The notes under the pieces: generated by a model | Database searches by the model: none | The model's input: only the letters and a program-made list of their open reading frames with translations | What the model was told of the DNA's origin: nothing | Position numbers and translations under genes: made by a program | Shown: positions 9,957 through 49,095 of the stretch, piece by piece | Layout: each line of letters opens with the position of its first letter | Position numbering within the stretch: position 1 is the stretch's first letter | From: Candidatus Obscuribacterales bacterium | GTDB taxonomy: Bacteria; Cyanobacteriota; Vampirovibrionia; Obscuribacterales; Obscuribacteraceae | Direction of reading: 5' to 3' | NCBI GenBank assembly: GCA_019752635.1 | Contig: JAIELX010000116.1 | Span: 1-64,000 of the forward strand | DNA length: 64,000 bases

Positions 9957-11906
9957 CTAGTCCGCCCTGCGGAGTTCAAGCGACTGAAACCGCTTTCTAA
10001 GATCAGCCAGCTCTAAACCAGCCTGCTTATCGTGGAGATCGAGAGCGCTCGCTTCGGCCTGCTGCAAGGCTCTGTTGACGTTGTTGAAATTGGTAATGTC
10101 GTCGGTTGAGGACAAACAACCCAAACTCAGCTTCAACAATCGAATGCAGCTCCTCAAGTCACTAGTTACTATCGGAACGCTACTCAGAGCAGCGTAGGTC
10201 GAAGCAGCTTCTTTCTCCCTAATCTCCCCATTCTTAAGACATTTAGCCAATCGACACTCCGCGTCAGCAAAGATTCTTCGAGCGGACTCCGCCCTTCCCC
10301 TATTGAACAAGCTTATACAAACTTCGGGCACAGCTTCCAGAGAACGATTCGGCTCTCGAATTCGGTTACTTTCAATTGTGCATTTGCGCAGCCAGTTCTC
10401 AGCAAGCGCAAATTTTCCAGCCTTGGCCGAAAGAATTGAGAGCTGGGTCATCATACTCGCTCTTTCTTCCCTGCTGGCAGTTCCAGGCAAATTCGGATCA
10501 AGCGAAAAGTTTGCTGACGGCTCCCGCTCGATTGCTAAACTCAACGCTTTTTCTAGTTCGCGATAGCCCTCTACATGTTCACCTCTGGCCTCATGAAGCT
10601 CAGCTATATTTCTGCGAATGACACTTTCAGCTAGAAGGTTTTTGGTCTCAACTAGGCCAAGCGCATACCTGAAGGCATCCAACCCCTTGACGCTCCAAGG
10701 ATTTATCGCATCGGACTCAATGTACATCCGTTTCTTGCACAACAAACCATAAAGCTCGTAACCCTGAACCAAAAGAGGAACGTCATCTTTGGAAATTCTG
10801 CAAAGGGTCTGTGCGCATTGGCTCAGCGAACTTTCGACTTGATCGGATGAACAATCTACTAAGTAGTCGCGATACAAGCGGTACAAATCAGCTCGAATAC
10901 TCTTCGGTCGAATGGCGCGAGAGCTTATTGGGCGAACAGCGCTATGCCCGGAAAAGTAGAGGAACGACACTCCAACTGTCACGCAGAGCAAACTCCACAG
11001 CACGCAAGTCAAAAGCCTTTGCCTCGGAGTTGAAGTTGTGTTAGGCGTGCCAACCCTAAGCTGACCACCTTGGCCGCTTGCGACCAACATTAAGTCCGCC
11101 TGCAGTTCAATCGCGGTCTGGTAACGATCGGCTGGTGCTTTTCGAAGCAATCTGGAAACTACTCTCTCAAGCCCAATAGGAACTTCCGTGTCACAAACCA
11201 AAGGCGGCGGCGCCTCTGAGCAATGTTTGCGCAAAAGCCCTATCACCGACGGAGCGCTAAATGGCGGTTTACCGCTGACCAACTCATACAGAATGCAGCC
11301 AAGCGCGTAGAGGTCGGAACGTCGATCTGCTTTATTGCCGGCACATTGCTCCGGACTCATATAGTAGTAGCTGCCCAATAAGGTACCAGATTGAGTTAGA
11401 CTCTGTGTTGGCTCTGCAGTTTTCGCCAAACCGAAATCGATGATTTTAAGCTCGTCAATTTCGTCTCCCGCCAACATTACATTAGCCGGCTTAAGGTCGC
11501 GATGGACCACACCGTGCGAATGTGCATAATGCAAGGCGTCACAAATGCTAGAGACAATGGCAATCGCTTTCGATGGTGGAAATACTTTCTGCTGTTGCAG
11601 CCAATCCTGCAGAGATTGCCCACTGACATACTCCATCGCAAGGTAAGGAAACTGATTCTTCCAGAGCCCATACCTGTAAAGTGTGACCAGGTTCTTGTGC
11701 CTGAGCTTTGAAAGAACACTCGCTTCTCGCTTAAATCTAGCTCTTTGAGCCTCGTCTCCCACTAAACTGGGGTGGAGAAGCTTGACTGCAACAAATCGTT
11801 CCAGCCCTCGCTCTTTGGCCAGATAAACACTTCCCATACCGCCTTCGCCGAGTATAGAGACAATTTCCAAATCATTTATTCTGTCGCCGGGTGAAAGTTC
11901 GATCAT
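9957..11906 (-). CDS. Membrane-anchored Ser/Thr protein kinase with TPR-like C-terminus
   Basis: Hanks-type kinase of about 649 aa. Glycine loop GEGGMGSVY (20-28), VAVK lysine (42), HRDLKPAN (135-142), DFG (157-159), and a SPEQ peptide-positioning motif. A single transmembrane helix lies at about 298-318. The last 330 residues are helical, with TPR-like periodicity (for example ALSLAIERE, LAENWLRKC). An ATG at 11906 is preferred to the TTG just before it. Single gene flanked by intergenic DNA, and not adjacent to a recognisable phosphatase or FHA gene. Substrate unknown. Confidence 0.92.
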   Translation of the reverse strand: MIELSPGDRINDLEIVSILGEGGMGSVYLAKERGLERFVAVKLLHPSLVGDEAQRARFKREASVLSKLRHKNLVTLYRYGLWKNQFPYLAMEYVSGQSLQDWLQQQKVFPPSKAIAIVSSICDALHYAHSHGVVHRDLKPANVMLAGDEIDELKIIDFGLAKTAEPTQSLTQSGTLLGSYYYMSPEQCAGNKADRRSDLYALGCILYELVSGKPPFSAPSVIGLLRKHCSEAPPPLVCDTEVPIGLERVVSRLLRKAPADRYQTAIELQADLMLVASGQGGQLRVGTPNTTSTPRQRLLTCVLWSLLCVTVGVSFLYFSGHSAVRPISSRAIRPKSIRADLYRLYRDYLVDCSSDQVESSLSQCAQTLCRISKDDVPLLVQGYELYGLLCKKRMYIESDAINPWSVKGLDAFRYALGLVETKNLLAESVIRRNIAELHEARGEHVEGYRELEKALSLAIEREPSANFSLDPNLPGTASREERASMMTQLSILSAKAGKFALAENWLRKCTIESNRIREPNRSLEAVPEVCISLFNRGRAESARRIFADAECRLAKCLKNGEIREKEAASTYAALSSVPIVTSDLRSCIRLLKLSLGCLSSTDDITNFNNVNRALQQAEASALDLHDKQAGLELADLRKRFQSLELRRAD

Positions 11907-12016
11907 CAAAGGTCACAATCCGCATAGAGCCTTTATACCTCTCTAGAAACGGTTAAACATGTCATCATTGAACTGATCTTGAGCGATTGGGTGTGACAAA
12001 GTTAGGTGTTAGGTGG

Positions 12017-13907: not shown

Positions 13908-14672
13908 CTACTCCGCACCGTCATCGAGGATTAGCGGCTCGCCGTTCAGGCAGCGCAGCTTGCCGGAGCAGACCAGAGCCACCGCTTCGGCAATTTCCTC
14001 AGGAGGAATGATCCGCTTGCGCGGACTCTTCTCTTCCAGCAGTCGGCGAGCCTCGTCGGCGGTCATGCTCTTGTGGTGCTGCAGATTGCAGACCATCTGG
14101 CTTACCATGTCGGTGTCGACGAACGCCGGACAGATGGGCACCACCGAGATGCCATGCTTGGCGAGTTCTTGCCCGAGGCTGCGTCCCATGCCGACTTGGG
14201 CATGTTTGGTCGCCGCGTAGCAAGAGTCGTACTTCCAGCCGCGCACGCCAAGCGTACTGCTGATCAGCGAGATCGAGCCGCCCTTCTGCTCGATCATCGA
14301 CGGCGTGCACGCCTGGATGAAGTGGAAAGAACCATGGACGTTCACGGCGAACACCCGCTCCCACTTTGCCGGATCGATGGAGGTAATTGCTCCCTTGCCA
14401 CCAATCCCGGCACTACACACCAGATTGCGAACAGTCCAGCCGAGTTCCTTTACGCGGGCAACGGCCGCGATGGCGACGGCGCGATCGGCGACGTCACCAA
14501 CCAGATACTCGGCCTGAGCGCCGGTGGCACGCAAGTCCACGCAGGCGGTCAGAAGATTGGCATCTGTCAGACCAACCAGAAACACCGGACCTTGCGTTGC
14601 CATTTTTCTTGCGCAGGCAAGCCCGATTCCGCGGCTGCCTCCGGTGACTATCGTACAGAGTTTTTCGCTCAT
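13908..14672 (-). CDS. Short-chain dehydrogenase/reductase (SDR)
   Basis: 254 aa, the usual length for a classical SDR. Rossmann motif TGGSRGIG near residue 10, NVHGS strand, catalytic Ser in LISST, and YAATK (Tyr-xxx-Lys) near residue 158. An NAD(P)H-dependent oxidoreductase with unidentified substrate; the FabG-like overall pattern does not prove a role in fatty-acid synthesis. Its start overlaps the stop of the CoaB-like gene by 4 bp (ATGA), so the two are translationally coupled. This is one of few tight couplings in the GC-rich region. Confidence 0.9.
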   Translation of the reverse strand: MSEKLCTIVTGGSRGIGLACARKMATQGPVFLVGLTDANLLTACVDLRATGAQAEYLVGDVADRAVAIAAVARVKELGWTVRNLVCSAGIGGKGAITSIDPAKWERVFAVNVHGSFHFIQACTPSMIEQKGGSISLISSTLGVRGWKYDSCYAATKHAQVGMGRSLGQELAKHGISVVPICPAFVDTDMVSQMVCNLQHHKSMTADEARRLLEEKSPRKRIIPPEEIAEAVALVCSGKLRCLNGEPLILDDGAE

Positions 14673-15394
14673 GAGGCGTCACCTTCCTTCAGTTCCGGTC
14701 GTGGTGCCGGGTTGGTGGCTTGAGGAATGGACGCAGACTCAACAGCCCGGATTGCGCCCTTGATAGTAAAGTCGGTCAGCGCTACCAATGACGCGTCTCG
14801 GTCGGTGGACTGCTGCAAGCAGTCACCTTCCGGTCCGACGATCATGTTGAGCCTGGTACCGGTGTCGTTGACCAGAACAACGCCGCAGCCCGCACCTTCG
14901 AGCAGGTAAGAACCGCGCGTGCGCATGTCATCCGTAGTTGCATGGCACATGGTTTTGAACGCGACCAGAAAGATATCCGGCCGCTTTTCGCGAATGTTGG
15001 AAAGGAACTTGCGCACTCGCTTGGTCTGAATGGTCGGGTTCGGCTGCTCACGGGTCTTCAGGCGCGACCCGTACTTGCCACCGGTGCCACCATCTGCGAT
15101 TTCGCCGTCGTAGTCGACCATGGCGACGTTCATGATGATGATGCCGGTGTCCGGCTCTGCAACCAGCTTATCGAAAAGGGCTTCGACATCGTCGTTCGTT
15201 TCGATTGCGCTGGCACCGCCGCAAGCCATCTTAGTCAGATGGAGGACAACTTCGCCGCCGCATTCGGGATGAGCCCGAAACAGTCGGTCCAGCCGCCTGG
15301 CCGTCTCGCCGTAGGCGGGAGCAGTTAGCGCTAAATGCGGTCGAACGTAACTGACGGTGCCTCCACCGAGAATGTGGACTTTCTTTTGGAACAT
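14669..15394 (-). CDS. CoaB-like (phosphopantothenoylcysteine synthetase-like) protein
   Basis: 241 aa. The order of motifs matches the CoaB Rossmann domain: an N-terminal HILGGGT loop, IIIMNVAMVDYDGEIA where CoaB has MAAAVADY, then FLVAFKT where CoaB has LVGFAAET, and VVLVNDTGT where CoaB has IVANDV. It lacks a fused CoaC decarboxylase domain. CoaB joins phosphopantothenate and cysteine in CoA synthesis; the divergence here means another carboxylate-amine ligation is possible. Coupled by ATGA overlap to the downstream SDR. Confidence 0.65.
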   Translation of the reverse strand: MFQKKVHILGGGTVSYVRPHLALTAPAYGETARRLDRLFRAHPECGGEVVLHLTKMACGGASAIETNDDVEALFDKLVAEPDTGIIIMNVAMVDYDGEIADGGTGGKYGSRLKTREQPNPTIQTKRVRKFLSNIREKRPDIFLVAFKTMCHATTDDMRTRGSYLLEGAGCGVVLVNDTGTRLNMIVGPEGDCLQQSTDRDASLVALTDFTIKGAIRAVESASIPQATNPAPRPELKEGDAS

Positions 15395-16352: not shown

Positions 16353-17345
16353 TTACTTGGCGGTGTCAGCGTCGGCAACCGGCACCACCTTCGGTGCGAG
16401 AGCGCCGAGCTGAATCACGTCTGGAGCCTTCGCTTCCTCGACCGCCGGCAGCTGGTAGAGCACGGCCGCCGCGTATTCCCAGTCGTAGGCGATGGTGCCC
16501 GGCGGCAGGAAGATCAGCTGTCGGCTGTCGTCCGTGTTGGGGGTGTGCGTCAGGCAGTAGTTGAGGCAGAGGTTCTGCCCGTTCATGTCGTAGACCGTGC
16601 CGCCCCAGGGCAGGGTGCGGACGAGCTTGCCGTCCTTCTTGCAGAAGTCGATGATGCCGGAGAGCTGCTCGGGCGTGAGCAACGAATCCAGCGCAGCCTG
16701 GTAGGCGTCGGCGTTACGGCTGTCGCCCGGCTTGTTCACCGGCAAGACCGTGACCTGGTCGGCGCGGATTTCTTTCGCCCACTTCAAGAACTCCTTGAGC
16801 TTGTCGGCGCAGTCCACGTCGCCCTTCTGCATGATGCAGGTAAGGCGTACGTTGTACCGCATCTTGTGCAGCTTGGCGATCAGCGCCGCGACGTCGTAGT
16901 AGTTCCCCTTGTGCGGGAAGTAGTGCTGCGCGTTGCGAGCGGGGTCGGTCGAAACCATGCTGATGCAAATGTGCGTCATGCCGAGCTCGGCCCAGTTCTG
17001 CATCTGCTGCCGGGTGACGCGGTCTTCGTCGGCCAGGTGGCGGCCGTGCGTCTGCAGTTCGACGAAGGTGAACCCGTTAACATCCCGCATGTACGGCTGC
17101 AGGTGCGTCAGGTACTGAGTAATCTGATCGGGGAAGATGGTCGGCTCCCCCTTGCCGGTGATGCGCACCGTATCGAGGCGGCTCTGCATCGCCATGCGGC
17201 AGGCCTTGCGAAACGTTTCCGGGTCGACGTCGCCGGCCTTGCCGAAGCCGACGCCCATCGAGGGGGTCATTGACGAAACGCACCACTTGCAGCGCGCCGT
17301 GCAAACCTGGTTTCCGGCGACGATGCAGAAGGTATTGAACTTCAT
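16353..17345 (-). CDS. Radical SAM enzyme
   Basis: 330 aa. CTARCKWC near residue 15 is the CxxxCxxC [4Fe-4S]-binding motif, and TGKGEPTIFP near residue 65 matches the GGEPT SAM-binding motif. The start at 17345 follows GGAGATC. Cys pairs near the C-terminus (NLCLNYCLT) could contribute to a partial second cluster. It would cleave SAM to a 5'-deoxyadenosyl radical; the substrate is unknown. Neighbours are a repeat lipoprotein and the NadE-PncA gene, with separate transcription units suggested by hairpins on both sides. Confidence 0.88.
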   Translation of the reverse strand: MKFNTFCIVAGNQVCTARCKWCVSSMTPSMGVGFGKAGDVDPETFRKACRMAMQSRLDTVRITGKGEPTIFPDQITQYLTHLQPYMRDVNGFTFVELQTHGRHLADEDRVTRQQMQNWAELGMTHICISMVSTDPARNAQHYFPHKGNYYDVAALIAKLHKMRYNVRLTCIMQKGDVDCADKLKEFLKWAKEIRADQVTVLPVNKPGDSRNADAYQAALDSLLTPEQLSGIIDFCKKDGKLVRTLPWGGTVYDMNGQNLCLNYCLTHTPNTDDSRQLIFLPPGTIAYDWEYAAAVLYQLPAVEEAKAPDVIQLGALAPKVVPVADADTAK

Positions 17346-17400
17346 GTGAAGAGATCTCCGTTTGAGGCGATATTCAATCGCAGGATTGAGCAGGAGGAAA

Positions 17401-17428
17401 ACCCGCAAGCCAGCTAAGACTTGCGGGT
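17401..17428 (-). terminator. Hairpin after nadE-pncA
   Basis: ACCCGCAAG / CTTGCGGGT arms 55-80 bp past the stop at 17482. Confidence 0.6.
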
Positions 17429-17481
17429 CAGTTCAACAGCAGACGCGCGGCACTATGAGGCCACCGTCTGGGAGTATCCAG

Positions 17482-20400
17482 TTACACGCGCCCGTGCAGC
17501 ACGTCGTCACCTTCGACGATCTCGACGCCTTCGGCCTTGAGCCACTTCAGGTGGCGTTCGTAAGCTTCCGGCGTCTGGTCGAACGCCTTGCAGACGTCGT
17601 GGATGACCCGCGCGCGAATCTTGGTGCCGCGGTACGCGACCGTGGTCGCGTCGATGGCGCTGAAGCCGACGCAGTACTCCAGCGCCAGCCCGAGGAAGTC
17701 CATGTGGATTTCATCGCAGCCGCGCTTTTCGGCTTCGGCAATCAGGAACTCGGCCAAGCCCGTGGACTGCCCGAGGAACGGGTGAGCAGCCAGGACAGCG
17801 GCAGAGGCCTTACGACCGTTGTCGAAGAAACAGCTGTAGCTGTCCACGCGGCTGTCGCGCCCTTTGCCCCACGCGCGGTGGCTAACCGATGCGTCGAGCT
17901 TTGGGTGGAACTTCCAGCCGTCGGTGTTCTTGACGCTGTGCTTGGCCCACAGCTTCTGCAAGATGCCATAGAGCGTGATTTCATCGACGAAGGCAGTCTT
18001 GCCCTCGTGGTTGCACGCAAACGAGCCGTGGTCGTCGTCGTGGTCGTCGAACGTATCAATCACCAGGTCGTAACCGCCGTAACGAGCCAGGCAGTTAGCC
18101 ATCATGATGATCTCGTCGCCCTGCGTCACGCCCATAGGCCCACCAGGCATGAAGTCCTTCTGCATGTCGATGCGACCGAGGACGCGCAGCACCCGCCGAA
18201 GGTGGGGCGGCACGATGCCGCTAGTGGGCGGCCGACGACGCGTGATCAGGCTCACCCACGAAGGGGAAATCAGGTTAACGGCCGGTGCGGGCACGACCGT
18301 GTTGTTCAGCGGTCGGCCGTCAACGCCTACCAGCGTCCCCGTGCCCTCGGCCGGCTCGCCGACCAAGACGATTTGCACACCACCGGTCGGCGTGACCGGA
18401 ACCGGCGGCTGCGAAGCCTGCCACGCGGCGGTGTCAGCATCCAAGTCTTTCAAGAGAGCCTCCCCCACCATATCGGAGACATGGTGCCACTTGTAACGCG
18501 GGTTAAGACTGACCGACCCGACCAGCGGACCACCCGGCTGGCACTCAGGCTTGAAGCGCTGGTCGAAGAACCGCTCGATGAACACGCGCAGCCACTTGCG
18601 AATCTCTGTTTCAGTGTAGTCGTTGTAAAACTTCGCGCGCTTGCACAGTTGGACAATTTTGCCGGGGCGGCTGCCCCAGCGAACCATGTGGTAAAGAAAG
18701 AAGTCTCGTAAGTCCGCAGGACCGATGGTCTCGTTGGTCTTCTGCGCGATCTTGCCGTCCGGTCCGGGCGGCAACAGCTCGGGGCTGACTTCCGTTTCGG
18801 CAATGTCGATGAGCACGCGGCGCAGCTCGCCGTCAAACTCGTTCTCCGCCACCCACTTGATCAGGAAGTTCACCAGCGTCTTGGGCACCCCGGCGTTGGG
18901 ATTATACATGCTCATGTGGTCGGCGTTGTACGTCGCCCACCCGGCAGCTTGCTCCGACAGGTCACCGGTCCCGATCACGAAGCCGGCGTTCATCAGGATG
19001 TCGGTCCTGGCGCGCGCTTGCTTGTTCTCGAAGCCGAGGTCCTTGCTTCCCTTGGGCAACTTCTTCAGCAGCTCGACGAACGCCTCCAGGGTCATGCCGG
19101 TGACATCGATCCCGAACGGCTTGTATCCCTCTTCCTGCCAGGCCAGCAGGCAGCGAGCGCGGATGTTCACTTCCTTCATTGTGACGCCCAGCAACTTCAT
19201 CAGGACGATGGAGTTGTCGTACGTCTTCCTCGTGGTGCCGAACCCGGGCAGCGCGTAGCAGTGCAGGAACTCGCGCGGAATGCCCAGCTCGTCGAAGGCT
19301 TTGACCGCCACCACGAGCACCTCGGTGGAATCGGCTCCGCCGGAGACGCCCATGACCGCTAGGGGCTTGCCACTGGTCTTCATCCACGCGATGGACTTCT
19401 CGATGGAACCGAAGCGTTTGAGCAGGTACTTGAGCCGCTTGCGCAGCCCACGCACCATGATCTTGAAGACCTGGCGACAGCGCTTGTTCAGCATCGGACC
19501 AGCCGACGGAACGAAGGGACGCGCGTCGACGAACCGCTGCAGGTCCGCCGGTTCGCCAGCCTCGACGTTGAACCCGATGCGCTCGAAACCAATCGAGTCG
19601 CACATGGGCTTGAAGAAGTCCGCGCAGTCGGCGAACGAGTTGATGCGTTCCCGCTCGTGCAGCAAGTGCTCAACGTCCATGTCAGCGGTAATCAGCGGGT
19701 CGTCTTCGTCGCCGAGCGGCTCGCGATGAGCCAGCATGATGCCCAGCTCGCCGATCATGAGATGCCCGCCATAGACGACGTCCACGGTAGATTCGCCTTC
19801 GCCGGCCGAGGCGTAGATGTAGCCGCCGAGCGCTTCGCTCGAGTGACCAGTGACGAGCTGCTCGCGGTAGACGTCTTTGCCGATCGTCTCGTTGGAAGCC
19901 GAGAGATTGCCGAAGATGGTCGCGCCGCAAAGCGCCTGCAGACGGTGCGGCGGAATGACCGCCCAGGCGTCTTCACAGATTTCGATGCCGAGAACCAGAC
20001 CAGGGAAGTCGACCGCTTCGAACAGCAAGTCGATACCGATGCGAACGCGCTGGCCGTTCAGCTCCATGGTCTGCTTGCGCAGCAGGAGACCGGAGCGGAA
20101 CCAGACGCCTTCGTGGAATTCGCCATAAGTGGGCAGGTAGCACTTCGGCACCACGCCGAGAACCTTGCCCTTGTGAATGACGACCGCGCAGTTGTACAGT
20201 TTGCCTTCCACCGCCAACGGTGCACCGATGACGACGACTCCGGTGTAGACACTTTCCGATGCGACGCGCACCTTCTCGATCGCTTCGCGGGCACCGTCCT
20301 GCAGCGCTTGCTGCCGGAAGAGGTCGCCGCAAGAGTAACCGGTGACGCCCAGTTCGTTCAGGAAGAGGATGCGAACCTTCTTCTCCTGAGCGCGGCCCAT

Positions 20401-20508
20401 CATGCGGATGATGCTCTCAGCGTTGTAGGTGCAGTTACCGACGTCAACGCTGTGGCTGCCGGCACCGACCTTCACCATCCCTAAGTTCTTTCGACGAGGA
20501 TTCTCCAT
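17482..20508 (-). CDS. nadE: Glutamine-dependent NAD+ synthetase fused to nicotinamidase
   Basis: 1008 aa, where a usual glutamine-dependent NadE has about 550-680. Residues 1-330 are a CN-hydrolase glutaminase domain with the expected Glu (NELG, 52), Lys (PKCYLP, 122) and Cys (IEICEDAW, 178). Residues about 370-690 are the NAD synthetase domain, with the ATP loop SGGADS (389-394) and GTGDLSEQAAGW (513-524). A linker follows, and residues about 775-1008 are a PncA-type nicotinamidase: Asp781 in IDMQKDF, metal site DDHDDDH (821-827), Lys882 in KG, Cys946 in GLALEYCV. One polypeptide would deamidate nicotinamide and amidate NaAD to NAD. The start at 20508 begins MENPRRK; the longer frame to 20595 is unlikely. 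Confidence 0.93.
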   Translation of the reverse strand: MENPRRKNLGMVKVGAGSHSVDVGNCTYNAESIIRMMGRAQEKKVRILFLNELGVTGYSCGDLFRQQALQDGAREAIEKVRVASESVYTGVVVIGAPLAVEGKLYNCAVVIHKGKVLGVVPKCYLPTYGEFHEGVWFRSGLLLRKQTMELNGQRVRIGIDLLFEAVDFPGLVLGIEICEDAWAVIPPHRLQALCGATIFGNLSASNETIGKDVYREQLVTGHSSEALGGYIYASAGEGESTVDVVYGGHLMIGELGIMLAHREPLGDEDDPLITADMDVEHLLHERERINSFADCADFFKPMCDSIGFERIGFNVEAGEPADLQRFVDARPFVPSAGPMLNKRCRQVFKIMVRGLRKRLKYLLKRFGSIEKSIAWMKTSGKPLAVMGVSGGADSTEVLVVAVKAFDELGIPREFLHCYALPGFGTTRKTYDNSIVLMKLLGVTMKEVNIRARCLLAWQEEGYKPFGIDVTGMTLEAFVELLKKLPKGSKDLGFENKQARARTDILMNAGFVIGTGDLSEQAAGWATYNADHMSMYNPNAGVPKTLVNFLIKWVAENEFDGELRRVLIDIAETEVSPELLPPGPDGKIAQKTNETIGPADLRDFFLYHMVRWGSRPGKIVQLCKRAKFYNDYTETEIRKWLRVFIERFFDQRFKPECQPGGPLVGSVSLNPRYKWHHVSDMVGEALLKDLDADTAAWQASQPPVPVTPTGGVQIVLVGEPAEGTGTLVGVDGRPLNNTVVPAPAVNLISPSWVSLITRRRPPTSGIVPPHLRRVLRVLGRIDMQKDFMPGGPMGVTQGDEIIMMANCLARYGGYDLVIDTFDDHDDDHGSFACNHEGKTAFVDEITLYGILQKLWAKHSVKNTDGWKFHPKLDASVSHRAWGKGRDSRVDSYSCFFDNGRKASAAVLAAHPFLGQSTGLAEFLIAEAEKRGCDEIHMDFLGLALEYCVGFSAIDATTVAYRGTKIRARVIHDVCKAFDQTPEAYERHLKWLKAEGVEIVEGDDVLHGRV

Positions 20509-20607
20509 GATAGAACTCCGTGTTTGTAGTCGCGGGGACCTCCGAGTGCGGAACGACGCTTTCGCACCGGCTCCGGTCGGCTCTGCCGCAACCATGTGAC
20601 TGCGAGA

Positions 20608-20636
20608 CTGAGCCGCCGCAACGCTGCTGGCGGCTC
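20608..20636 (-). terminator. Hairpin after PRPP synthetase gene
   Basis: TGAGCCGCC / GGCGGCTCA arms about 16-44 bp past the stop at 20652. Confidence 0.6.
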
Positions 20637-20651
20637 ATGAGAAAGGGCGGA

Positions 20652-22232
20652 CTAGCCAAGCGTGCGCGTGGCGAAGAAGCCGCGGCCGGTGAGGTGGTCC
20701 ACGATGATGTCGGCAACAGACTCCACGCGGAGGAATTCCGGGAACTCGGCCGCAAGCTGCACGGCACGCGGGTGCGTATCGGTGACGATGATTTGGCGGA
20801 AGTTTCCCGACGCCTTGAGCTTCGCCAATGCGCCACCGGGCATGGCACCGTGAGTGGCGATCATGTCCACGCTGGTCGCGCCTTTGGGCTGGACTTCACC
20901 ATCCTTCGGCGGATTCAAGTACCCGCCCGCAGCACCTATTGCACTGCCGCCGGTGCGGATGATGTCGTCGAACATGCGCACGGCACGCCCGCCAACATCG
21001 CCTACTTGACCCACAACGCGCGTCTCGCCGTCCTTGCGGACTTTGAGCGTGTAGGCGGTATCGACGCCGCCGTCCTTGGCCATGGATTCGACCCACTTGA
21101 TGCGGTTGATGTCGGCGCTAGCCAAGACCCAGTCTCGCGACTCGGCAGCCAGGCGCTGCACGATTACCTTTCCGCAGTAGAGGTGCACCGGCTTGAGGCC
21201 GGCCTCGAAGCAGCCGGGCATGGCCTCGGCGTGCAGGTCGCACATGACGATGCGGTTGCCCATCGGGCAACGCGGGACCGACGAGAGCAGCCGTGCGCGA
21301 ATCTTCGCCTTGATCGCCTCGCCAAACTTGGCCTTGCGCTCCATGGTGGAGTAGCCGTAGTACGGCACGATCATGGTGATGCTCAGCGCACCACCTTCGA
21401 AGACTGCGTTGGCCAGGCGCAGGAGGTCCATCGTGTCAGGGTCGTTGATGGTACCGGCGACGATGACGACGTGCCGACCGGCGACCGACGTCTTGAGCTT
21501 ACTGAACGGCTCGCGCGCCGACAGCGGGTGCGAGACTTCCGTCGGTTCGTTGTCGGCGGCGGCGGACAGGCGAAGCAGCTCCTCGCGCGGAATCGACTTT
21601 TGCTTGTTCTGGAAGCGGTTCATGAGCAGCTCGCGCTCGAAGTCGCTCGGTATGGCGGCCTTGCGCTCGGTGCGAACAACTTCGCCGCGCTCAAACTGAT
21701 CGCCACCGGCGGCGACGATGCGGTCGGCCAGGTAGTCGTAGCTGGAAATACTTAACACCAGCTTGCGCGCGTTCGGGTTCGCCAGTTCCAGCGCAGCCTT
21801 GCGACGGCGCGGGTCGCAGCCGGCGCTGTGCCCGTTGTAGTGTTCGAACAGCGGTGCGACCGGGCTGGACGGGTCACACATCACTACCCGATTGCCGCGC
21901 GGCGAAGACGGGATGGAAGAGAACGCACGCTGGCGAACGCGCTTCTCGAAGGCGCTTTCCTTGCCGCTGCGCGAGCCGGCGATGGTGATGCGCAGGGCAT
22001 CTTCGTCATAGGCGGCCGACGCGGTGTCATACACCCGCAGGAAACCGATGTCGGTGTCCATGTCGCCGGTGACATAGACTTCACGCCCTTCAACCAGCGT
22101 GACGAGCCGATTGTAGACCTCGAAGTCGGCAAAGTAGCTCTGCACCACAGCACCGCGAGCGAACTCCGGATCAGCGAGCAGACGGGCGGCCAGCGCGGGG
22201 CTGCCCACATCGAAAACCAGTTTCTGTGACAT
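20652..22232 (-). CDS. prs: Ribose-phosphate pyrophosphokinase with duplicated, degenerate N-terminal domain
   Basis: 526 aa, much longer than the usual 310-320. The C-terminal 300 residues carry PRPP synthetase features: IVPYYGYSTMERK (288-300), CDLHAEAMPG (331-340) and the PRPP loop MFDDIIRTGGS (420-430). Residues 1-200 align by eye to the first domain of the same enzyme: ITIAGSRSGKESAFEKR against ITMIVPYYGYSTMERK, and NRVVMCDPSSP against NRIVMCDLHAE. The catalytic DLH is lost there. It makes PRPP from ribose 5-phosphate and ATP, needed by the neighbouring nicotinate phosphoribosyltransferase. The start at 22232 is chosen over a longer frame. Confidence 0.88.
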   Translation of the reverse strand: MSQKLVFDVGSPALAARLLADPEFARGAVVQSYFADFEVYNRLVTLVEGREVYVTGDMDTDIGFLRVYDTASAAYDEDALRITIAGSRSGKESAFEKRVRQRAFSSIPSSPRGNRVVMCDPSSPVAPLFEHYNGHSAGCDPRRRKAALELANPNARKLVLSISSYDYLADRIVAAGGDQFERGEVVRTERKAAIPSDFERELLMNRFQNKQKSIPREELLRLSAAADNEPTEVSHPLSAREPFSKLKTSVAGRHVVIVAGTINDPDTMDLLRLANAVFEGGALSITMIVPYYGYSTMERKAKFGEAIKAKIRARLLSSVPRCPMGNRIVMCDLHAEAMPGCFEAGLKPVHLYCGKVIVQRLAAESRDWVLASADINRIKWVESMAKDGGVDTAYTLKVRKDGETRVVGQVGDVGGRAVRMFDDIIRTGGSAIGAAGGYLNPPKDGEVQPKGATSVDMIATHGAMPGGALAKLKASGNFRQIIVTDTHPRAVQLAAEFPEFLRVESVADIIVDHLTGRGFFATRTLG

Positions 22233-22390
22233 GTAATTCGTTCTCCAGAATGAAATCTTCAGCTGTCGCGACGCATAGGTCAACCTTGCCGTTGGTTGCG
22301 CGCGGCGCTGGCAGATTGTTGGATGATGGAATCAGGACACACGAACCGAATTCCTCGGCTCGTGTAATGCGTTGCACTGGGCACTCGCTA

Positions 22391-22978
22391 TCACTGACCG
22401 CCAGTGGGCCACCCGGCGCGCGCCAGGGCCGCGCCGACGATCGCCCACTGTTCAGGGGTATCCCACTGAGGATCGTTGGTGTGACCGATGAGACCCGCAT
22501 CGCCCCGCATCAGATCATCAGGCAGCTCAACGATTGGCAGCGACCGCGCGTGCTCCGATACCGGCTCGCCAGTACTCGGCGACGGCCACGGCTCATCGAT
22601 GTGATGCGTTATCGTTCCGGTGCGTCGCCCCTGCGGCTTGGCGACAGGCCGCTTCGAGACGAGCACCTGATCGTCCGCTTCGAAGATCATCGTGGTTTCT
22701 TTCGGCTCGCGAACGGTGATGTTTCGCGATACGCCCTGCTCGTGCGGATGCTCTTCCCGACGCTCGGACAGCGTGACGTAGACCAGGTGGTACTTGTCGC
22801 CGACTTTGGTGATACCGGCGATGTGCTCCCAAGTGTAGTCACGCCACTGCGGCACGAAAACACCTAGCCCGGCCCCGGCAGACACAAGGTCGCTTGCCTT
22901 GATTAACTGCCCGTCGCCTCCGCTTCGCAGCGTGAACTTCGCTTCGTCACCCTGAAACTGACTTGTGTTGGTGCCCAT
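22391..22978 (-). CDS. Hypothetical protein between PRPP synthetase and NAPRT genes
   Basis: 195 aa, soluble, no signal peptide. Contains a beta-rich first 120 residues (aromatic VFVPQWRDYTWEHIAGI) and a proline-rich acidic middle. No domain recognised. Its position inside the NAD island, on the same strand, suggests an accessory role, but the gene has its own surroundings of about 100-160 bp. The ATG at 22978 lacks a strong Shine-Dalgarno. Confidence 0.6.
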   Translation of the reverse strand: MGTNTSQFQGDEAKFTLRSGGDGQLIKASDLVSAGAGLGVFVPQWRDYTWEHIAGITKVGDKYHLVYVTLSERREEHPHEQGVSRNITVREPKETTMIFEADDQVLVSKRPVAKPQGRRTGTITHHIDEPWPSPSTGEPVSEHARSLPIVELPDDLMRGDAGLIGHTNDPQWDTPEQWAIVGAALARAGWPTGGQ

Positions 22979-23030
22979 TTATCAACGCTTTCGTTATGGC
23001 GGCAGATTGCCACCAAGGTGGTTAGAGGGA

Positions 23031-23061
23031 GATGAGGGCGGCTCCGTTAGCCGCCCTCATC
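23031..23061 (-). terminator. Hairpin after NAPRT gene
   Basis: GATGAGGGCGGCT / AGCCGCCCTCATC, a perfect 13-bp stem just past the stop at 23077. Confidence 0.7.
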
Positions 23062-23076
23062 ATCGTGGTCCGTCAG

Positions 23077-24618
23077 TTACTTCGCGGCGCGCAGGCGGCG
23101 GCGCTCGTCGAAGCGAGCACGAGCAGCGGTGCGCTCGACTTCGCGCTTTTCGCTGAAGCTCTTGATCCAGCCGGCGACCAGCGGCGACAGCTCCATGCGC
23201 GTGTACTTGCCCCAGGTGGCGTCCGAACGCTTCGCCTGAGCCTGGAAGCTCTCGTCGTACACGATGCGCCCCTGCTTCACAAGCTGCACGAACAGCGCCT
23301 CGCCATCCACGTTCTCGGTGACGTCGGCAATGTACATGACGTCGCCCCGCCCGTAGACACGGATGTTGCCGGGGATGCTCTCCTTGCCGGGCGAGTTACT
23401 GAACTTGATGTTCGGCTTGCCCCCCGTCTGGCTGCGCTTGAACCCGGTGGAGAGAACGTCGCGATGGACACCTTTCCACCAGTAGCCGCCAGCGCCGGGG
23501 AAAAGCTTGTCCGAAGGCAAGCCGGTCTCGGCCTCGAAGTGCCGGTAGACACGCTCGGTGGTCTCCGGCGTGACCTCGTCCTCGAAGACGATGTCGCGGG
23601 GCGGTGTGATGCCGGCGTAGCTCATCTCCTGGTGGTAGAGAACCGTCTGACCTGCGATGTCGCCCGAGTCCAAGCGCGCGCCGGCCTTCACCTTGGACGG
23701 GTGAGCCAGTAGCGCCTTGATCACGTTCTCCAGCCCGATCGTCTCCGCGTCAACCAGGTCAGGCAGCAGCTTGGCGTTGTGCAGCTTGCGAACCGCCAGC
23801 TCCATCATCTCGTACTCGCAGTCACCCAGGGCGCGCTCCAGGTCCTGATTCGAGCACATGAACTCGTGCCCGATCGTACCGATGGCACCAAACAGATCCG
23901 GCCACATGAACTCGGCCGTGTCGTTCGAGGTGAGCTGGCCACGCCCGCCGGAGCCGATGTACCGCGCTTGCAGGAGCACGATGTTGGCCAGCTCGTTCAC
24001 CGCGGCGCGCAGACCGAACTCGGCGTCACGGTCTGTGACCATGCCCATGAGCCGGGCCTTGGTCGCCTGAATCACAGGCGCGAAGTACCGACACATCGCC
24101 GGCTCGAGGTAGGAGATCAGCCCGCCGTAGGGGCTCTCGAACGTGATGCAAGGCACGCCCTTGAGGAACGCCTGACCACCGGGGAAGCCCCACACATCCA
24201 CCGGCAGGTAGATGTTCTGCTTGCCCTTCTGGTCGGACAGAATTCGATCCCAGAGCGCCACAGGGAACGACCGCACGCGCGAACCGGTCAGGCACCATTC
24301 CTTGGCGATGAGGACGTCGCGCCGCTTGAGCGGGCGATTGAACCACTGGTGCAACATCGGCTCGTGGCCGGCCATGATCATCTGGTCGCCGGCCCCCTTC
24401 TCAGTGGGCGCGCGGCGCATAGTGACGTGGTAGGCGGCAGGGGTGAGCGAGAAGTGCTCGCTGGCCTCGCCCATCGGGCGCTTGTAGGTATCGGTCGCGG
24501 TGATCATGCCGCCGAGCATGTACATCTTCGAGTAAAACTCGGCGATCATTTCCGCGCGCTTGGAAGCGATCAGCTTCTGCAACCGTCGCGACTTGGCAGT
24601 AGTGTTTTTGACCGTCAT
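23077..24618 (-). CDS. pncB: Nicotinate phosphoribosyltransferase
   Basis: 513 aa. Converts nicotinate and PRPP to nicotinate mononucleotide, the committed Preiss-Handler step. Motifs in order: PVDVWGFPGGQAFLKGVP (139-156) and EFGLR (200-204), then SNDTAEF and GTIGH with the family His (247-251). GARLDSGD (313-320) has Leu-Asp as in nicotinate enzymes rather than the RPDSGD of nicotinamide enzymes. KFSNSPGKESIPG matches the K-S-K-PG phosphate-binding region. The start at 24618 follows AGGAGC. The frame to 24825 would run through the repeat element and is rejected. Some nicotinamide use cannot be excluded. Confidence 0.87.
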   Translation of the reverse strand: MTVKNTTAKSRRLQKLIASKRAEMIAEFYSKMYMLGGMITATDTYKRPMGEASEHFSLTPAAYHVTMRRAPTEKGAGDQMIMAGHEPMLHQWFNRPLKRRDVLIAKEWCLTGSRVRSFPVALWDRILSDQKGKQNIYLPVDVWGFPGGQAFLKGVPCITFESPYGGLISYLEPAMCRYFAPVIQATKARLMGMVTDRDAEFGLRAAVNELANIVLLQARYIGSGGRGQLTSNDTAEFMWPDLFGAIGTIGHEFMCSNQDLERALGDCEYEMMELAVRKLHNAKLLPDLVDAETIGLENVIKALLAHPSKVKAGARLDSGDIAGQTVLYHQEMSYAGITPPRDIVFEDEVTPETTERVYRHFEAETGLPSDKLFPGAGGYWWKGVHRDVLSTGFKRSQTGGKPNIKFSNSPGKESIPGNIRVYGRGDVMYIADVTENVDGEALFVQLVKQGRIVYDESFQAQAKRSDATWGKYTRMELSPLVAGWIKSFSEKREVERTAARARFDERRRLRAAK

Positions 24619-24697
24619 GTCAAAGCTCCTGAATGAAGTTAGAGAAGCCACCGCTAACGGTGGCGTACGAGACTCCAGATACGCACTCCGGCAGCGT

Positions 24698-24776
24698 CGG
24701 CAAGCCTCCTTGCCTCCGCGCCATGAGAGCGGCGCTTCGCCCTCACGGCGGTAAACCGCCGCTCGAGGCTTGCTTG
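24698..24776 (-). repeat. Intergenic structured element, copy A (upstream of pncB)
   Basis: About 78 bp sharing CGGCAAGCCTCCTTGCC, TCCGCGC and CGGCGGTAAACCGCCGCTC with copies at 26686, 28105 and 63131. In the transcript it forms a GGCAAG/CTTGCC hairpin with a GAGG loop and a GCGGTTTACCGC hairpin. The 3' GAGGCTTGC can also pair with the 5' GCAAGCCTC. Lies 3' of nadD and about 80 bp upstream of pncB. Confidence 0.7.
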
Positions 24777-24795
24777 TCCTTCTCTGTCCGGGACA

Positions 24796-24823
24796 GCGGG
24801 CGCGAGTTTGCGTTCGCGCCCGC
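24796..24823 (-). terminator. Hairpin after nadD
   Basis: GCGGGCGCGA / TCGCGCCCGC, directly after the stop at 24832. Confidence 0.65.
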
Positions 24824-24831
24824 AACCGCTC

Positions 24832-25425
24832 TCAGTCGCGGTAGAGTTCGTGACGCATGATCATCTCCTCGACCTCGGGCGGCACCATGTACTTGATGGT
24901 CTTGCGCAGCCGCACGCGCTCGCGGATGAGCGAGCTGGAGATGGAGGACGTCGGGCAGTCGATCACGTCGAAGTCCGTGTCGCACGGCAGCGCCTTGCGG
25001 ATCTTGTCCTTGTCCGCCAGCTCGTGGTAGCGAGGCGCGACCAACAATCGCACCATGTGCAGCACCTCGTGCGCACCGTGCCAAGTCATGATCGGCTCGA
25101 CCGTATCGAGACCGATGATGAGGTTGAGCCGGCAGTCCTGCCCGTACTGGCGCTTCACTTCCTTGAGCGTGTCCAGCATGAAGGACTTGCCGGGACGGTC
25201 GACTTCGATGCGCGAGGCACGGAAGTAGGGATTGCTTGCGCAGCCGGCGGCCAACATGCCCCAGCGCAGTTCTTTGTCGGTGCGCCCGGACTTGTGGACA
25301 GGGTCGCCGTTGGAGATGAAGAGGGTCTCGTGGAAGCCGAACTGGTCACGCGCACACTCGCCGACAAGCAAGTGCCAGTTGTGAACCGGGTCGTACGTAC
25401 CACCGGAGATACCGATTTCGAGCAT
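24832..25425 (-). CDS. nadD: Nicotinate-nucleotide adenylyltransferase
   Basis: 197 aa, normal for the family. Adenylates NaMN to NaAD with ATP. The nucleotidyltransferase signature GGTYDPVHNWHL spans residues 8-19. LIIGLDTVEPIMTWH corresponds to the family's GxDxxxxxxxW region. TSSISSSLIRERV near 160-172 is the C-terminal ISSTxIR motif. An AAGGA site precedes the ATG. It acts between the phosphoribosyltransferase downstream and NadE; all these genes share one strand. Confidence 0.93.
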   Translation of the reverse strand: MLEIGISGGTYDPVHNWHLLVGECARDQFGFHETLFISNGDPVHKSGRTDKELRWGMLAAGCASNPYFRASRIEVDRPGKSFMLDTLKEVKRQYGQDCRLNLIIGLDTVEPIMTWHGAHEVLHMVRLLVAPRYHELADKDKIRKALPCDTDFDVIDCPTSSISSSLIRERVRLRKTIKYMVPPEVEEMIMRHELYRD

Positions 25426-25547
25426 CGGATTATCCTTGTGTTTGCATCAGCTTTGCGATGGGTCGCTCCGAGGCTTTAGCCGAAGAGCGATGATTCGCGC
25501 TGATGCATGTTTAGTTGGTAGAACTCCGCGTCTTGAACGCGGGATAA

Positions 25548-25570
25548 CGGCGACGCTACGAGCGTCGCCG
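25548..25570 (-). terminator. Hairpin after nadK
   Basis: CGGCGACGCT / AGCGTCGCCG stem with 3-nt loop. A second hairpin (GAGCC/GGCTC) overlaps the stop codon at 25589. Confidence 0.6.
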
Positions 25571-25588
25571 CATACGAGCCGGGTCGGC

Positions 25589-26533
25589 TCATTTTTTTCC
25601 CATGTACCAGTCGTGACAGCGCGGGCTGACGAATGCCGTCAACGGCTGATCGGCGACGCGCACCACAAGCTCAGCACCGAGAGGGAAGGGAAACTTGATG
25701 TGCTTGCCGTCGACGTGCAGCAGCATTTTCGGCATGCCGGAGATGACCCGCACTTCAGAGCGAGCCGGCAGCAGTCCTCCTGGCAAGAAGAGCTTTTCGT
25801 CCGGCTCGAGGAACGGCAGCATAGCCTTGTACTGGAAGCGCTTCGCCAAGATGGGCTGAATGATGCCCTTCATCGAGCGCATCAGCCCCGTGGAACCGGC
25901 GGGCGTGCAGACGACCAGCGCCGACCCCTTCTGCTTCTCCGTCCGACCGTTGATGGTGACCTGGTACTTGTTCGTGCCGGAGATGTCCAGCTCTGCGATC
26001 ATCACTTCGTTCACCACATAAAGTGGCAGCTGCTTGCCCTCGACAAACATCACCAGCCGCACCAACTCGCGGGTGCGAAGCTTGCCGGAAAGAATCTGCT
26101 GCAGCACCTCTGGGAACGTGACCTCGTTGGCCATGCAGAAGTGGCCGTGCGAGGTTGCCGCAGACTTGACTCCAAGCAGCGGGATGCCGCTCTTGATGTT
26201 GTGCGCGGCATCAATGAAACTGCCGTCACCGCCGACTGTGATAACCAGGTCAACCTTGTTGTAGGCGACGCCGGCTTCGTGGCGGTAGATGCTGCGGAAC
26301 GGGATGCGAGCCTGCGCCAACGCCGCTTCGACTTGGTCGGCACAGCGCTCGCTCTCTTCGTGGGTGTCCTTGACGCCGGCGACGGAGCTGTGCCCTTCTT
26401 CGACGAGGCGCAAGGCCTCGTGGTCGTTCCGAGCAGTCATCTCCATCAAGCACGTGGTCTTGCGAATCACCAGAACATTCTTCGGTTCGAAGGGCTTTCG
26501 CCCGCTCGTCCTTTTCGGTTGAATGGCTTTCAT
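25589..26533 (-). CDS. nadK: NAD kinase
   Basis: About 314 aa. Phosphorylates NAD to NADP with ATP or polyphosphate. GGDGS (101-105) and the NE pair (175-176) are the family's catalytic and NAD-binding motifs, and TPAGSTG (210-216) is the glycine-rich TPTGSTAY equivalent. The ATG at 26533 follows GAGGTG; a GTG 12 bp upstream is possible but sits before this site. It ends the linear route to NADP in this cluster. A structured repeat (copy B) lies upstream. Confidence 0.92.
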   Translation of the reverse strand: MKAIQPKRTSGRKPFEPKNVLVIRKTTCLMEMTARNDHEALRLVEEGHSSVAGVKDTHEESERCADQVEAALAQARIPFRSIYRHEAGVAYNKVDLVITVGGDGSFIDAAHNIKSGIPLLGVKSAATSHGHFCMANEVTFPEVLQQILSGKLRTRELVRLVMFVEGKQLPLYVVNEVMIAELDISGTNKYQVTINGRTEKQKGSALVVCTPAGSTGLMRSMKGIIQPILAKRFQYKAMLPFLEPDEKLFLPGGLLPARSEVRVISGMPKMLLHVDGKHIKFPFPLGAELVVRVADQPLTAFVSPRCHDWYMGKK

Positions 26534-26685
26534 GCACCACCTCACGGGTAGGTCAAATGTCGAGAATCACGCGCGCTTCGCCAGTGACGGTGCGCGCATG
26601 TGAGGGTTCGCTTCACAGCGTCCCTACGTTCGGTTCGATCAACTCTCGGTCGGGAGAGCAGTGTTTAAAGGCGCTCAGTCTCGTT

Positions 26686-26760
26686 CGGCAAGGCTCCTCG
26701 TCTCCGCGCCTAGACCACGGCGCATCCCTCCGAGCGGCGGTAAACCGCCGCTCGAGCTTC
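26686..26760 (-). repeat. Intergenic structured element, copy B (upstream of nadK)
   Basis: CGGCAAGGCTCC, TCTCCGCGC, GGCGCATCCCTC and GCGGCGGTAAACCGCCGC followed by CTCGAGCTTC. The first hairpin is degenerate here but the second is perfect. Flanks TCAGT (5') and ACTGA (3') can close the element. Lies 3' of the Nudix gene and about 150 bp before nadK. Confidence 0.7.
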
Positions 26761-26800
26761 ACTGAATCCGTGACCATCGGCAGCAACGCGAGTGAAGAGG

Positions 26801-27472
26801 TCAGCTCGCTGCGCTGTTCTTCAGAACGCCGAGCTGCACGCACTCGGCAATGATTTCCCGGTGGGTCGAGAACGGCATCTCGGGGAGCTGGTCCACGAAG
26901 TACGGCTTGGCGTCCTTCGACTCGGGGCCGGGCACGATCACGCCGTCGCACGGCGCGGCCAGATAGAACATCAGCATGTTGTTGCGCCCGGGCGTCATCA
27001 CGACCTTGAGTAGACGCACGATGGTGACGTCCAAACCAGTTTCTTCCTTCGCCTCGCGCTTGGCTGCGACTTCCGGCGATTCGAAGGCGTCGACGAAACC
27101 ACCGGGCAAAGCCCAGCTGCCGATCGCCGGAGCGATACCGCGCTGAACAAGAACAATGCTGCCGTCCGAACGAGGGATCACGGCCACCGCGACGGGAATC
27201 GGATTGTTCCAGTTGATGTAGCCGCAAGAGCAATGCAGACGCTCTTTCTTGCCTTCGACCGGACCGAGCTTCAGCTCGGCTGCACACCAGGGGCAGTGCT
27301 TGAACGCACCGCCGGCAGGCGGCTTCTTAGCAGCGGCGGCCTTGCCATTCAGATTCTGCCGATGCAGAAAGCCCCAGAGCACACACAGCGCAATCTGAGA
27401 AGCAACCAGAAACAAAACGGTCAGGACCAGCGAACCGGATCCGGCCAGGAACGAGAACAGTAGCAAGAACAT
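26801..27472 (-). CDS. Membrane-anchored zinc-ribbon Nudix hydrolase
   Basis: 223 aa. Residues 1-37 are strongly hydrophobic (one long or two short membrane helices). A zinc ribbon follows (CPWC about 60-63, CSCG about 81-84), then the Nudix box GGFVDAFESP...REAKEETGL (about 124-147). The ribbon-plus-Nudix order recalls NADH pyrophosphatase NudC, but the SQPWPFPxS signature of that enzyme is not evident, so an ADP-ribose or NDP-sugar substrate is equally possible. The ATG at 27472 is 5 bp after GGAG. Context suggests turnover of NAD-related dinucleotides. Confidence 0.83.
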   Translation of the reverse strand: MFLLLFSFLAGSGSLVLTVLFLVASQIALCVLWGFLHRQNLNGKAAAAKKPPAGGAFKHCPWCAAELKLGPVEGKKERLHCSCGYINWNNPIPVAVAVIPRSDGSIVLVQRGIAPAIGSWALPGGFVDAFESPEVAAKREAKEETGLDVTIVRLLKVVMTPGRNNMLMFYLAAPCDGVIVPGPESKDAKPYFVDQLPEMPFSTHREIIAECVQLGVLKNSAAS

Positions 27473-38936: not shown

Positions 38937-40679
38937 CTAGGCGACCGGCAACCTGAGCCAGACCCGCGTACCGGCACTCGATGAATTCAGTCCGATTTTC
39001 CCACCCATGCGCTCGATCAACATCTTCGATATTCGCAGACCAATACCTCGCCCGCCGCTCTGCGACGTCACCGGAGTACCCGTTAGAATTGCCGATTGCA
39101 CCGACTCTGCGATTCCACTACCAGAGTCTTCTACGCTGATGTTGAGATGGCCGGGCTCCGCGACCCATTCGATTTTTATATCACTTCCCGGAGGCGAGAA
39201 CTTAATACCGTTGCTCAGAAAGTTACCCAGAACCTGCTTCACTCGCGAGGGATCGCACAGTATGCGAACATCCTCGGTTGAATTGATGCGAACAGATATT
39301 CCTTTCTCTTCCACCAGACCTCGCAAGGACTCCACCACTTCGTTTACTACTTGCAAGGCTGATACAGCCTTGATCTCCAACTTCATTTGCCCGGTTTGAA
39401 GCTGGTCTATATCAAGCAAATCTTCACTCAGTGAGGCAATGGACATCAGCGTCTTTTTGATCGCCATCAACTTATCCTTGCTACTTGCAGCGCTCTCCTC
39501 AAGACGCACCATACGCTCGATGGTAGTCGTGACAGCCGCGAGCGGGCTGCGAATATCGTGACTGAGCGTCATGAGCATCTCGTCCTTAAAGCGATCAGCT
39601 TGTCTTGTACTTGTGACATCGTTAGCAACGCAAAAGAATGAGCTGTCACTCTTCGACCATGCCAAGGTCCACTCTAGCTCCCGAATTCTGCCGGCCCCGT
39701 CTTGCGCGGACAGCTCGATCTTTCGAAGCGGTTCGTCGTTCTCCGCCATGTCAGTCAGCGTCTGTGCGAAGTAGTCCGCATCGTCTCCAAGATAATCAAC
39801 AAGCCTGAGTTCGGGCACATCGGGGGATAGCCTGAAAAATTCCCGCGTGAATGGATTGGATTTTTTGATCTTGGAATCTCGATCAAGACTTACAATGATC
39901 TGCTTGGAATTAGCTGCCAATGAGACTTCTCGAAAGCGCAACTCATGAACCTCCGACACCAGAGCCTGCGAGAGATCGTCAACTCGCGCGATATCGTCAT
40001 TCCTCCAATCATCATCTGCCCCGGCTGCGCTATGCAAGCCGGCCTCGGACAATCGATCCGCAACACGACGCACCGGCAGCGACACCATTCTCGCAAAGCA
40101 GAAGTACGATGCCACAAGGGCGCCAAGAAAGAGAATGAAATCCAACACAATCGCGTTCGCGATAATAACTACCTCTTGTTGCTGTGCTGTCACCAGTGCG
40201 TTCTGAGCGGACTCCAAATCTCGCAGAACCATCGCACTGACGTCTATAAGCTCGTCATGGGTTAGAACAGCACGGTCCTTGCCTTCCTGCAAGTCCGGAC
40301 GCTGAGCCAACGCCCGCAATTCCTGCTTGACGCCTCGCCACAGATCCGAAAAACTCTTGCTCTGGTGATGAGTTTGCTCGAAAGACTTCAAAGTTTGAAC
40401 AATCTGCTCGCCATTCGCGATCCGCTCCGACAATCTATCTGAACCCGGAAGCGAATCCCTCGCCCCGGTGATTATCGCCGCACGTAGAGCATCGGCAGAC
40501 AAAACGGACAACAGATTTACGTCTCGGATGTGAGCCGCGTTTGTAGAAAGCGCACTGTTGCGGCTGGCTATCTTCGATAACGAATCAAAGACAAACACGC
40601 TAAACACAAGCTGAAGCAACAACGGGATAGCAAACATCACAACTAGCAATTGCACAGGCACACCAATGAGACGCTTCAT
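38937..40679 (-). CDS. Membrane sensor histidine kinase with PAS-like domain
   Basis: 580 aa. Two membrane helices (about 8-30 and 169-194) bracket a helical extracytoplasmic sensor. A HAMP-like segment and a PAS-like region (about 250-355) follow. LSHDIRSP with His374 is the phosphoacceptor. The ATPase N box is near LGNFLSNGIKF, with G boxes DSGSGIAES and GGRGIGLRIS. The ATG overlaps the stop of the upstream STPK gene (ATGA), so the two are translationally coupled. Likely phosphorylates the response regulator at 42832. Confidence 0.93.
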   Translation of the reverse strand: MKRLIGVPVQLLVVMFAIPLLLQLVFSVFVFDSLSKIASRNSALSTNAAHIRDVNLLSVLSADALRAAIITGARDSLPGSDRLSERIANGEQIVQTLKSFEQTHHQSKSFSDLWRGVKQELRALAQRPDLQEGKDRAVLTHDELIDVSAMVLRDLESAQNALVTAQQQEVVIIANAIVLDFILFLGALVASYFCFARMVSLPVRRVADRLSEAGLHSAAGADDDWRNDDIARVDDLSQALVSEVHELRFREVSLAANSKQIIVSLDRDSKIKKSNPFTREFFRLSPDVPELRLVDYLGDDADYFAQTLTDMAENDEPLRKIELSAQDGAGRIRELEWTLAWSKSDSSFFCVANDVTSTRQADRFKDEMLMTLSHDIRSPLAAVTTTIERMVRLEESAASSKDKLMAIKKTLMSIASLSEDLLDIDQLQTGQMKLEIKAVSALQVVNEVVESLRGLVEEKGISVRINSTEDVRILCDPSRVKQVLGNFLSNGIKFSPPGSDIKIEWVAEPGHLNISVEDSGSGIAESVQSAILTGTPVTSQSGGRGIGLRISKMLIERMGGKIGLNSSSAGTRVWLRLPVA

Positions 40680-42823: not shown

Positions 42824-42831
42824 CAATACCT

Positions 42832-47631: not shown

Positions 47632-47693
47632 GTGTTTTCCTTTGGTCGTTGTTTGATCAGTGCTTGAGGGAAGAAACGAGAGGCACGAGTGAA

Positions 47694-47724
47694 GACTGCA
47701 CTGCGCACTGCGCGCGGTGCAGTC
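47694..47724 (-). terminator. Hairpin after serpin 2
   Basis: GACTGCAC / GTGCAGTC arms about 40-65 bp past the stop at 47761. Confidence 0.55.
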
Positions 47725-47760
47725 CGAGACGAAACCGGTTTGCCACGCTGGCCGCGCGGC

Positions 47761-48972: not shown

Positions 48973-49073
48973 GTTTGCGATTCTTTCTTCAGGTCTGGTT
49001 TTGAGTGGGTTGAAACACACCGACAGCCGCACCGCACGGGCGGCGCGGCGACTACCGATGGGCGATGAGCAAT

Positions 49074-49095
49074 CCCGCTTGCGCAAACAAGCGGG
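49074..49095 (-). terminator. Hairpin after serpin 3
   Basis: CCCGCTTG / CAAGCGGG with CGCAAA loop, between the serpin 3 stop (49139) and serpin 2 start. Confidence 0.6.

Follow-up and report, generated by a model that had tools for sequence, protein, structure and literature searches.

A chromosomal block of NAD synthesis genes with a NadE-PncA fusion in an Obscuribacterales genome

Preiss-Handler salvage (PncA-PncB-NadD-NadE) is the described system closest to the gene block reported here. Two others bear on it, namely the octameric glutamine-dependent NadE known from M. tuberculosis (3dla, PRK02628) and phage NARP1, whose enzymes Adps and Namat reconstitute NAD+ (PMC12774641). The block lies in the window, i.e., the whole 64-kb stretch analysed, which covers positions 1-64000 of contig C28 in a metagenome-assembled genome (MAG) of Obscuribacterales (Melainabacteria; 9.2 Mb, 159 contigs, completeness 86%, contamination 6%). 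This host is a non-photosynthetic cyanobacterial relative with its vitamin B3-to-NAD enzymes in one chromosomal block. The pathway itself is ordinary; what is unusual is the joining of PncA to other enzymes and the rebuilding of the block in relatives from other enzyme families.

As in Preiss-Handler salvage, all four enzymes are encoded together, the route is identical and the linkage is conserved. Unlike the usual arrangement, the block adds a PRPP (phosphoribosyl pyrophosphate) synthetase-like gene (PRS) and NadK, has PncA fused to NadE, and uses divergent families of nicotinate phosphoribosyltransferase (NAPRT) and PRS. The NadE part aligns end to end with the octameric type and keeps its catalytic motifs, whereas the added C-terminal nicotinamidase domain is foreign to the M. 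tuberculosis enzyme. With NARP1 the block shares the rebuilding of NAD from breakdown products, but the enzymes are different, the block is chromosomal and viral relatives were not found.

The gene block and its fused enzyme

Profile searches identified the NAD genes at 16.3-26.5 kb, all on the minus strand, in the order NadK, NadD, NAPRT, PRS-like and NadE-PncA, with a radical-SAM gene behind.

25589..26533, minus strand: nadK, NAD kinase (Pfam PF01513, E=5e-8, above cut-off; NCBIfam NAD kinases; GGDG at residue 105)
24832..25425, minus strand: nadD, nicotinate-nucleotide adenylyltransferase (NCBIfam PRK00071.1-3, E=3.5e-46, and TIGR00482, both equivalog models above cut-off; motifs GGTYDPVH and SSSLIR)
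23077..24618, minus strand: divergent NAPRT (TIGR01513, E=1.4e-14, below cut-off)
22391..22978, minus strand: 195-aa protein without a match in Pfam, NCBIfam, PHROG or PADLOC; a homologue (32%) adjoins NadE-PncA in locus L018
20652..22232, minus strand: PRPP-synthetase-like gene of a cluster-specific family, N-terminal domain duplicated (TIGR01251, E=3e-41)
17482..20508, minus strand: nadE-pncA fusion, with glutaminase and NAD synthetase domains followed by a nicotinamidase domain
18211..20508, minus strand: NadE part and linker (motifs NELGVTGY, VPK, ICED and SGGADS at residues 80, 149, 206 and 418 of the open reading frame, ORF)
17482..18210, minus strand: PncA part (triad D810, K911, C975; metal ligands D850, H852, H856)
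16353..17345, minus strand: radical-SAM gene (Pfam Radical_SAM, E=1e-6, 0.2 bits short of the cut-off)
26801..27472, minus strand: Nudix hydrolase (PF00293, E=6e-19)

The original prediction, made from the letters alone, had named these enzymes and the Nudix gene on one strand, and Pfam and NCBIfam profile searches confirmed all of them. Its central point, linked genes that lead from nicotinamide to NADP and include a PRS-like gene of their own, likewise holds. Shine-Dalgarno-like sequences stand at the likely starts of NAPRT (ATG at 24618, after AGGAG), PRS (ATG at 22232, after GGAG), nadE-pncA (20508) and the radical-SAM gene (17345).

The fusion ORF matched the NAD(+) synthase model PRK02628 over residues 35-720 (E=4.5e-204) and the nicotinamidase model PRK11609 over residues 805-1032 (E=6.6e-34; both NCBIfam). 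Among solved structures, its NadE part matched 3dla (E=1e-119) and its PncA part the nicotinamidase 2wt9 (E=1e-22). The glutaminase motifs (E, K, C), the SGGxDS loop of the synthetase, the PncA triad and the metal ligands are all intact, as are the active-site motifs of the other block enzymes apart from departures in PRS. No earlier description of a NadE-PncA fusion was found in the searchable literature, most subscription papers being outside its reach.

We consider it likely from these features that the block is a chromosomal Preiss-Handler operon of the Obscuribacteraceae for nicotinamide recycling, in which PncA is tethered to its own pathway. PncA would convert nicotinamide, salvaged or freed by NAD-consuming enzymes, to nicotinate, which NAPRT would join to PRPP supplied by the dedicated PRS-like enzyme. 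NadD would then adenylate the product, NadE would re-amidate nicotinate adenine dinucleotide to NAD, and NadK would form NADP. Tethering PncA to NadE, or in relatives to the other NadE type or to NAPRT, would most simply give a fixed ratio and co-location of the first and later steps.

The NAPRT is remote, with no match in Pfam and none by sequence in the PDB. An AlphaFold (AF2) model built from 36 sequences reached a pLDDT of 95.5 (48.7 with 6 sequences), and its best solved structure in Foldseek was the E. faecalis NAPRT 2f7f (E=1e-22). The catalytic His and R-x-DSGD are kept across the 36 homologues. According to the model, the gene has the NAPRT/NAMPT fold with the catalytic His and PRPP-site residues, and the TSN motif together with gene context favours NAPRT over NAMPT, with nicotinate as its putative substrate.

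Conserved order and recurrent fusion in relatives

The core NadD-NAPRT-PRS-NadE-PncA occurs in the same order in relatives including G010, G007, G005, G011, G028 and G019. It is also present in G021 with PRS preceding NAPRT, the order seen in locus L014, and partially in G024, G012, G008, G004, G015, G016, G032 and G072. Chance clustering of NAD genes is ruled out by this conservation, and the comparison of synteny thus bears out the linkage first noted in the window. On an 805-kb contig of G007 the order is LPLAT-LPLAT-M28-Nudix, then, further on, NadK-NadD-NAPRT-PRS-RNA ligase-MFS-radical SAM-NadE-PncA, so that flank and core are both shared with the window. NadK within the block was found only here and in G007, in the same place (38-39% identical). 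The Nudix gene, earlier counted with the NAD set, belongs instead to the M28/LPLAT flank, because the G007 copy is found with M28/LPLAT and some 8 kb away from nadK.

The order is kept with different parts. NadE occurs as two types that are about 25% identical: type A in the window, L013, L014, L015, L018, L059-L062, L065, L067, L068, L153, L154, L156 and L157, and type B in L025, L063, L064, L069 and L074. There are three NAPRT types: the window type, the type encoded on host contig C8 (about 27% identical to it) and a third. The NAPRT slot in sister cassettes is filled by the other, Pfam-recognised types, and L074 is a hybrid that combines window-type NAPRT with type B NadE. Matches to the window type were found in eight of the 60 genomes searched, its own included, two of the eight being remote. 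It is frequent among Gemmataceae and Isosphaeraceae, both Planctomycetota, where NadE lies downstream in most loci that are long enough to reveal it; NAPRT-NadE neighbours occur in Gemmataceae and other planctomycetes, and remote copies were found in two archaeal MAGs.

PncA is fused to type A NadE in the window and seven loci (L018, L059, L060, L061, L062, L156, L157), and to type B NadE in L063 and L064. In one other genus it sits on the C-terminus of C8-type NAPRT (L150, L151, L158, L159), and in L013, L014, L015, L067, L069, L074, L153 and L154 it is free, adjoining NadE. These fusions require at least three joinings of PncA, because there are three different partners. Fused and unfused copies are intermixed in the type A NadE tree, in which the host's two copies fall into separate, fully supported clades. 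The fusion has formed repeatedly, or an ancestral fusion has been split repeatedly. Presence, order, motifs, conservation, recurrent fusion and further copies in the genome are all direct observations.

Another reason for the fusion could be that ammonia released by PncA from nicotinamide passes to the synthetase domain of NadE, so that the amide nitrogen would be reused and glutamine spared. PncA does release ammonia and is joined to two NadE types, and octameric NadE can take ammonia in free form as well as through its tunnel (PMC6946656), which makes such passing possible in principle. We regard it as very improbable as a general reason, because the fused copies retain intact glutaminase residues and because the other genus has the PncA-NAPRT fusion, where passing ammonia makes no sense.

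The NAPRT-PncA fusions include L150:8242-10497 (751 aa) and L159:2648-4963 (771 aa). In L151:316-4104 the NAPRT-PncA ORF runs on into a PmbA/TldD domain and is cut by the contig end, so an assembly or frame artefact is possible. NadD is also found as a tandem NadD-NadD fusion of 433 aa (L072:5360-6661) and as separate tandem genes in L131, L174 and L175.

Other NAD genes and recurrent partners

The block is not the only NAD locus of its genome. Further NAPRTs lie on C8 and C70, two NadDs adjoin another PRS on C98, a housekeeping PRS is on C87, and NadK genes occur on C24 and, as a weak match, on C56. The block described as self-contained is thus a linked set, but its NAPRT, NadD, PRS and NadK are not the only copies. 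The de novo genes nadA and nadC, correctly reported as missing from the window, adjoin each other elsewhere (nadC-nadA, C25:59433-60912). Only two clear NadE genes were found in the MAG, in the window and on C129, the remaining PF02540 matches being weak or partial. Because both of these are NadE-PncA fusions, the de novo route probably depends on the block too; NadD and NadE would complete the route begun by nadA and nadC.

These genes bear on the proposal that the block is an island of vitamin B3 auxotrophy or a mobile element, as first suggested with reliance on salvage and a comparison with phages. The patchy presence of the window NAPRT type would fit it. However, nadC-nadA contradicts auxotrophy, and the flank is common to the G007 chromosome. 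A scan of IMG/VR gave no relative of the NAPRT, and tblastn of the fusion against phage and plasmid records matched NadE or PncA parts and never the full length. We reject a phage or plasmid origin on these grounds and consider the proposal as a whole extremely unlikely.

Two kinds of gene recur beside the NAD genes. The radical-SAM family adjoins them in ten loci, being linked to the cassette in the window, L014, L015, L069, L153 and L154, and to NadK in L172, L174, L175 and L180; no such link was visible in L173, L176, L177, L178, L179 and L181. The L153 homologue, more than 60% identical to the window copy, passes the Pfam cut-off, and no sequence match to the family was found in the PDB. 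Examples linked to NadK, NadD or NadE-PncA are L153:8585-9547, L174:9488-10417 and L180:9725-10585. The other partner is a T4 Rnl1-type RNA ligase, located no more than about 7 kb from NadE in G007, G010, G011, G005, G021 and on host contig C129, i.e., six of the nine copies found in the scanned genomes of the family, a number that depends on fragmented MAGs. The ligase also occurs in G028 and G035. T4 RNA ligase 1 family genes lie beside the cassette at L013:16752-17894, L014:18662-19876, L015:7294-8532, L059:13448-15280, L061:4734-5936 and L062:6108-7316, often with an endonuclease/exonuclease/phosphatase-family gene next.

The ligase raises the possibility of an NAD-rebuilding kit, which would restore NAD quickly after NADase attack, whether from contact toxins or in phage defence, and would in relatives be paired with RNA repair by the linked ligase. 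A PRPP source within the block and multiple NAD loci in one genome agree with it, as does the frequency of the ligase near NadE. On the other hand, no RNA ligase lies near the window block, and the NAPRT lacks IMG/VR relatives. PncA and NadE belong to an ATP-costly four-step route (PMC9316036) rather than the known NARP1 pair. PADLOC returned nothing beyond a generic Nudix match, and membership in a defence system was discarded. We therefore judge the kit unlikely. A wider proposal, in which a physically organised NAD-recycling complex with repeatedly grafted PncA is coupled to RNA repair and a radical-SAM step as a cellular module for recovery from damage to NAD and RNA, is a distinctly speculative and improbable one; if true, such a module would have been assembled repeatedly from different enzyme families.

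Points against the proposed operon, and its meaning

In nine of the ten gaps at 15.4-27.6 kb the DNA folds better than shuffled sequences (z <= -1.6, down to -7.2). Two features illustrate the range.

22979..23076, minus strand: G+C-rich intergenic hairpin with 13 pairs and no U-tract (minimum free energy -43.6 versus -24.2 for shuffles, z=-6.8)
17358..17481, minus strand: terminator-like hairpin with U-tail behind nadE-pncA (ACCCGCAAGTC...GGCTTGCGGGTTTTCC, z=-3.9)

The hairpin claimed for each gene is real in this sense, but does not by itself demonstrate independent tuning. Most intergenic hairpins lack a U-tract, the one behind nadE-pncA having it, and the hairpins are not special to the NAD cluster, because 6 of 20 other gaps in the window reach z <= -3, down to -6.0. 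No Rfam match to a riboswitch or known RNA was found in the window.

Several points weigh against a Preiss-Handler operon. The genes stand about 100-250 bp apart, and the strong hairpins between them may interrupt co-transcription. PRPP synthesis by the cassette PRS is uncertain, because its family is without two usual motifs, ARQDRK of the ATP site and DxxDT for PRPP: the window copy scores above the curated TIGR01251 cut-off (141 versus 113 bits), but the 12 aligned cassette copies mostly have GYSTMER and DD[IM]xR, whereas the housekeeping PRS has ARQDRK and DDMVDTAGT. A second, degenerate N-terminal domain is present in the PRS copies of the window, L074 and L154. The window NAPRT is remote, and Foldseek E-values of its model against NAPRT and NAMPT folds are close. 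Copy counts are provisional because of the completeness and contamination of the MAG. Enzyme activities, co-transcription and a benefit of tethering are what we infer from the genes.

Elsewhere in the window, an SDR gene overlaps one for a 241-aa protein (13908-15394), with weak likeness to phosphopantothenate-cysteine ligase (CoaB) and PHROG 35624 (E=1e-32). Three serpin genes stand in tandem (46426-50398), and four large Ser/Thr protein kinases are encoded at 278-2773, 9957-11909, 40676-42826 and 50866-54201, one of which is rich in TPR repeats while two match TPR weakly.

What is new is that the same gene order is made from different families, that PncA fusion recurs, that both clear NadEs of the host are fused, and that the RNA ligase and the radical-SAM gene recur, pointing to two unstudied partners. 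The natural fusions offer ready-made material with which to test whether substrates are channelled during NAD synthesis. The repeated fusion of PncA, together with an order rebuilt from different families, is direct evidence at the genome level for selection of nicotinamide recycling as a single physical unit in this lineage.

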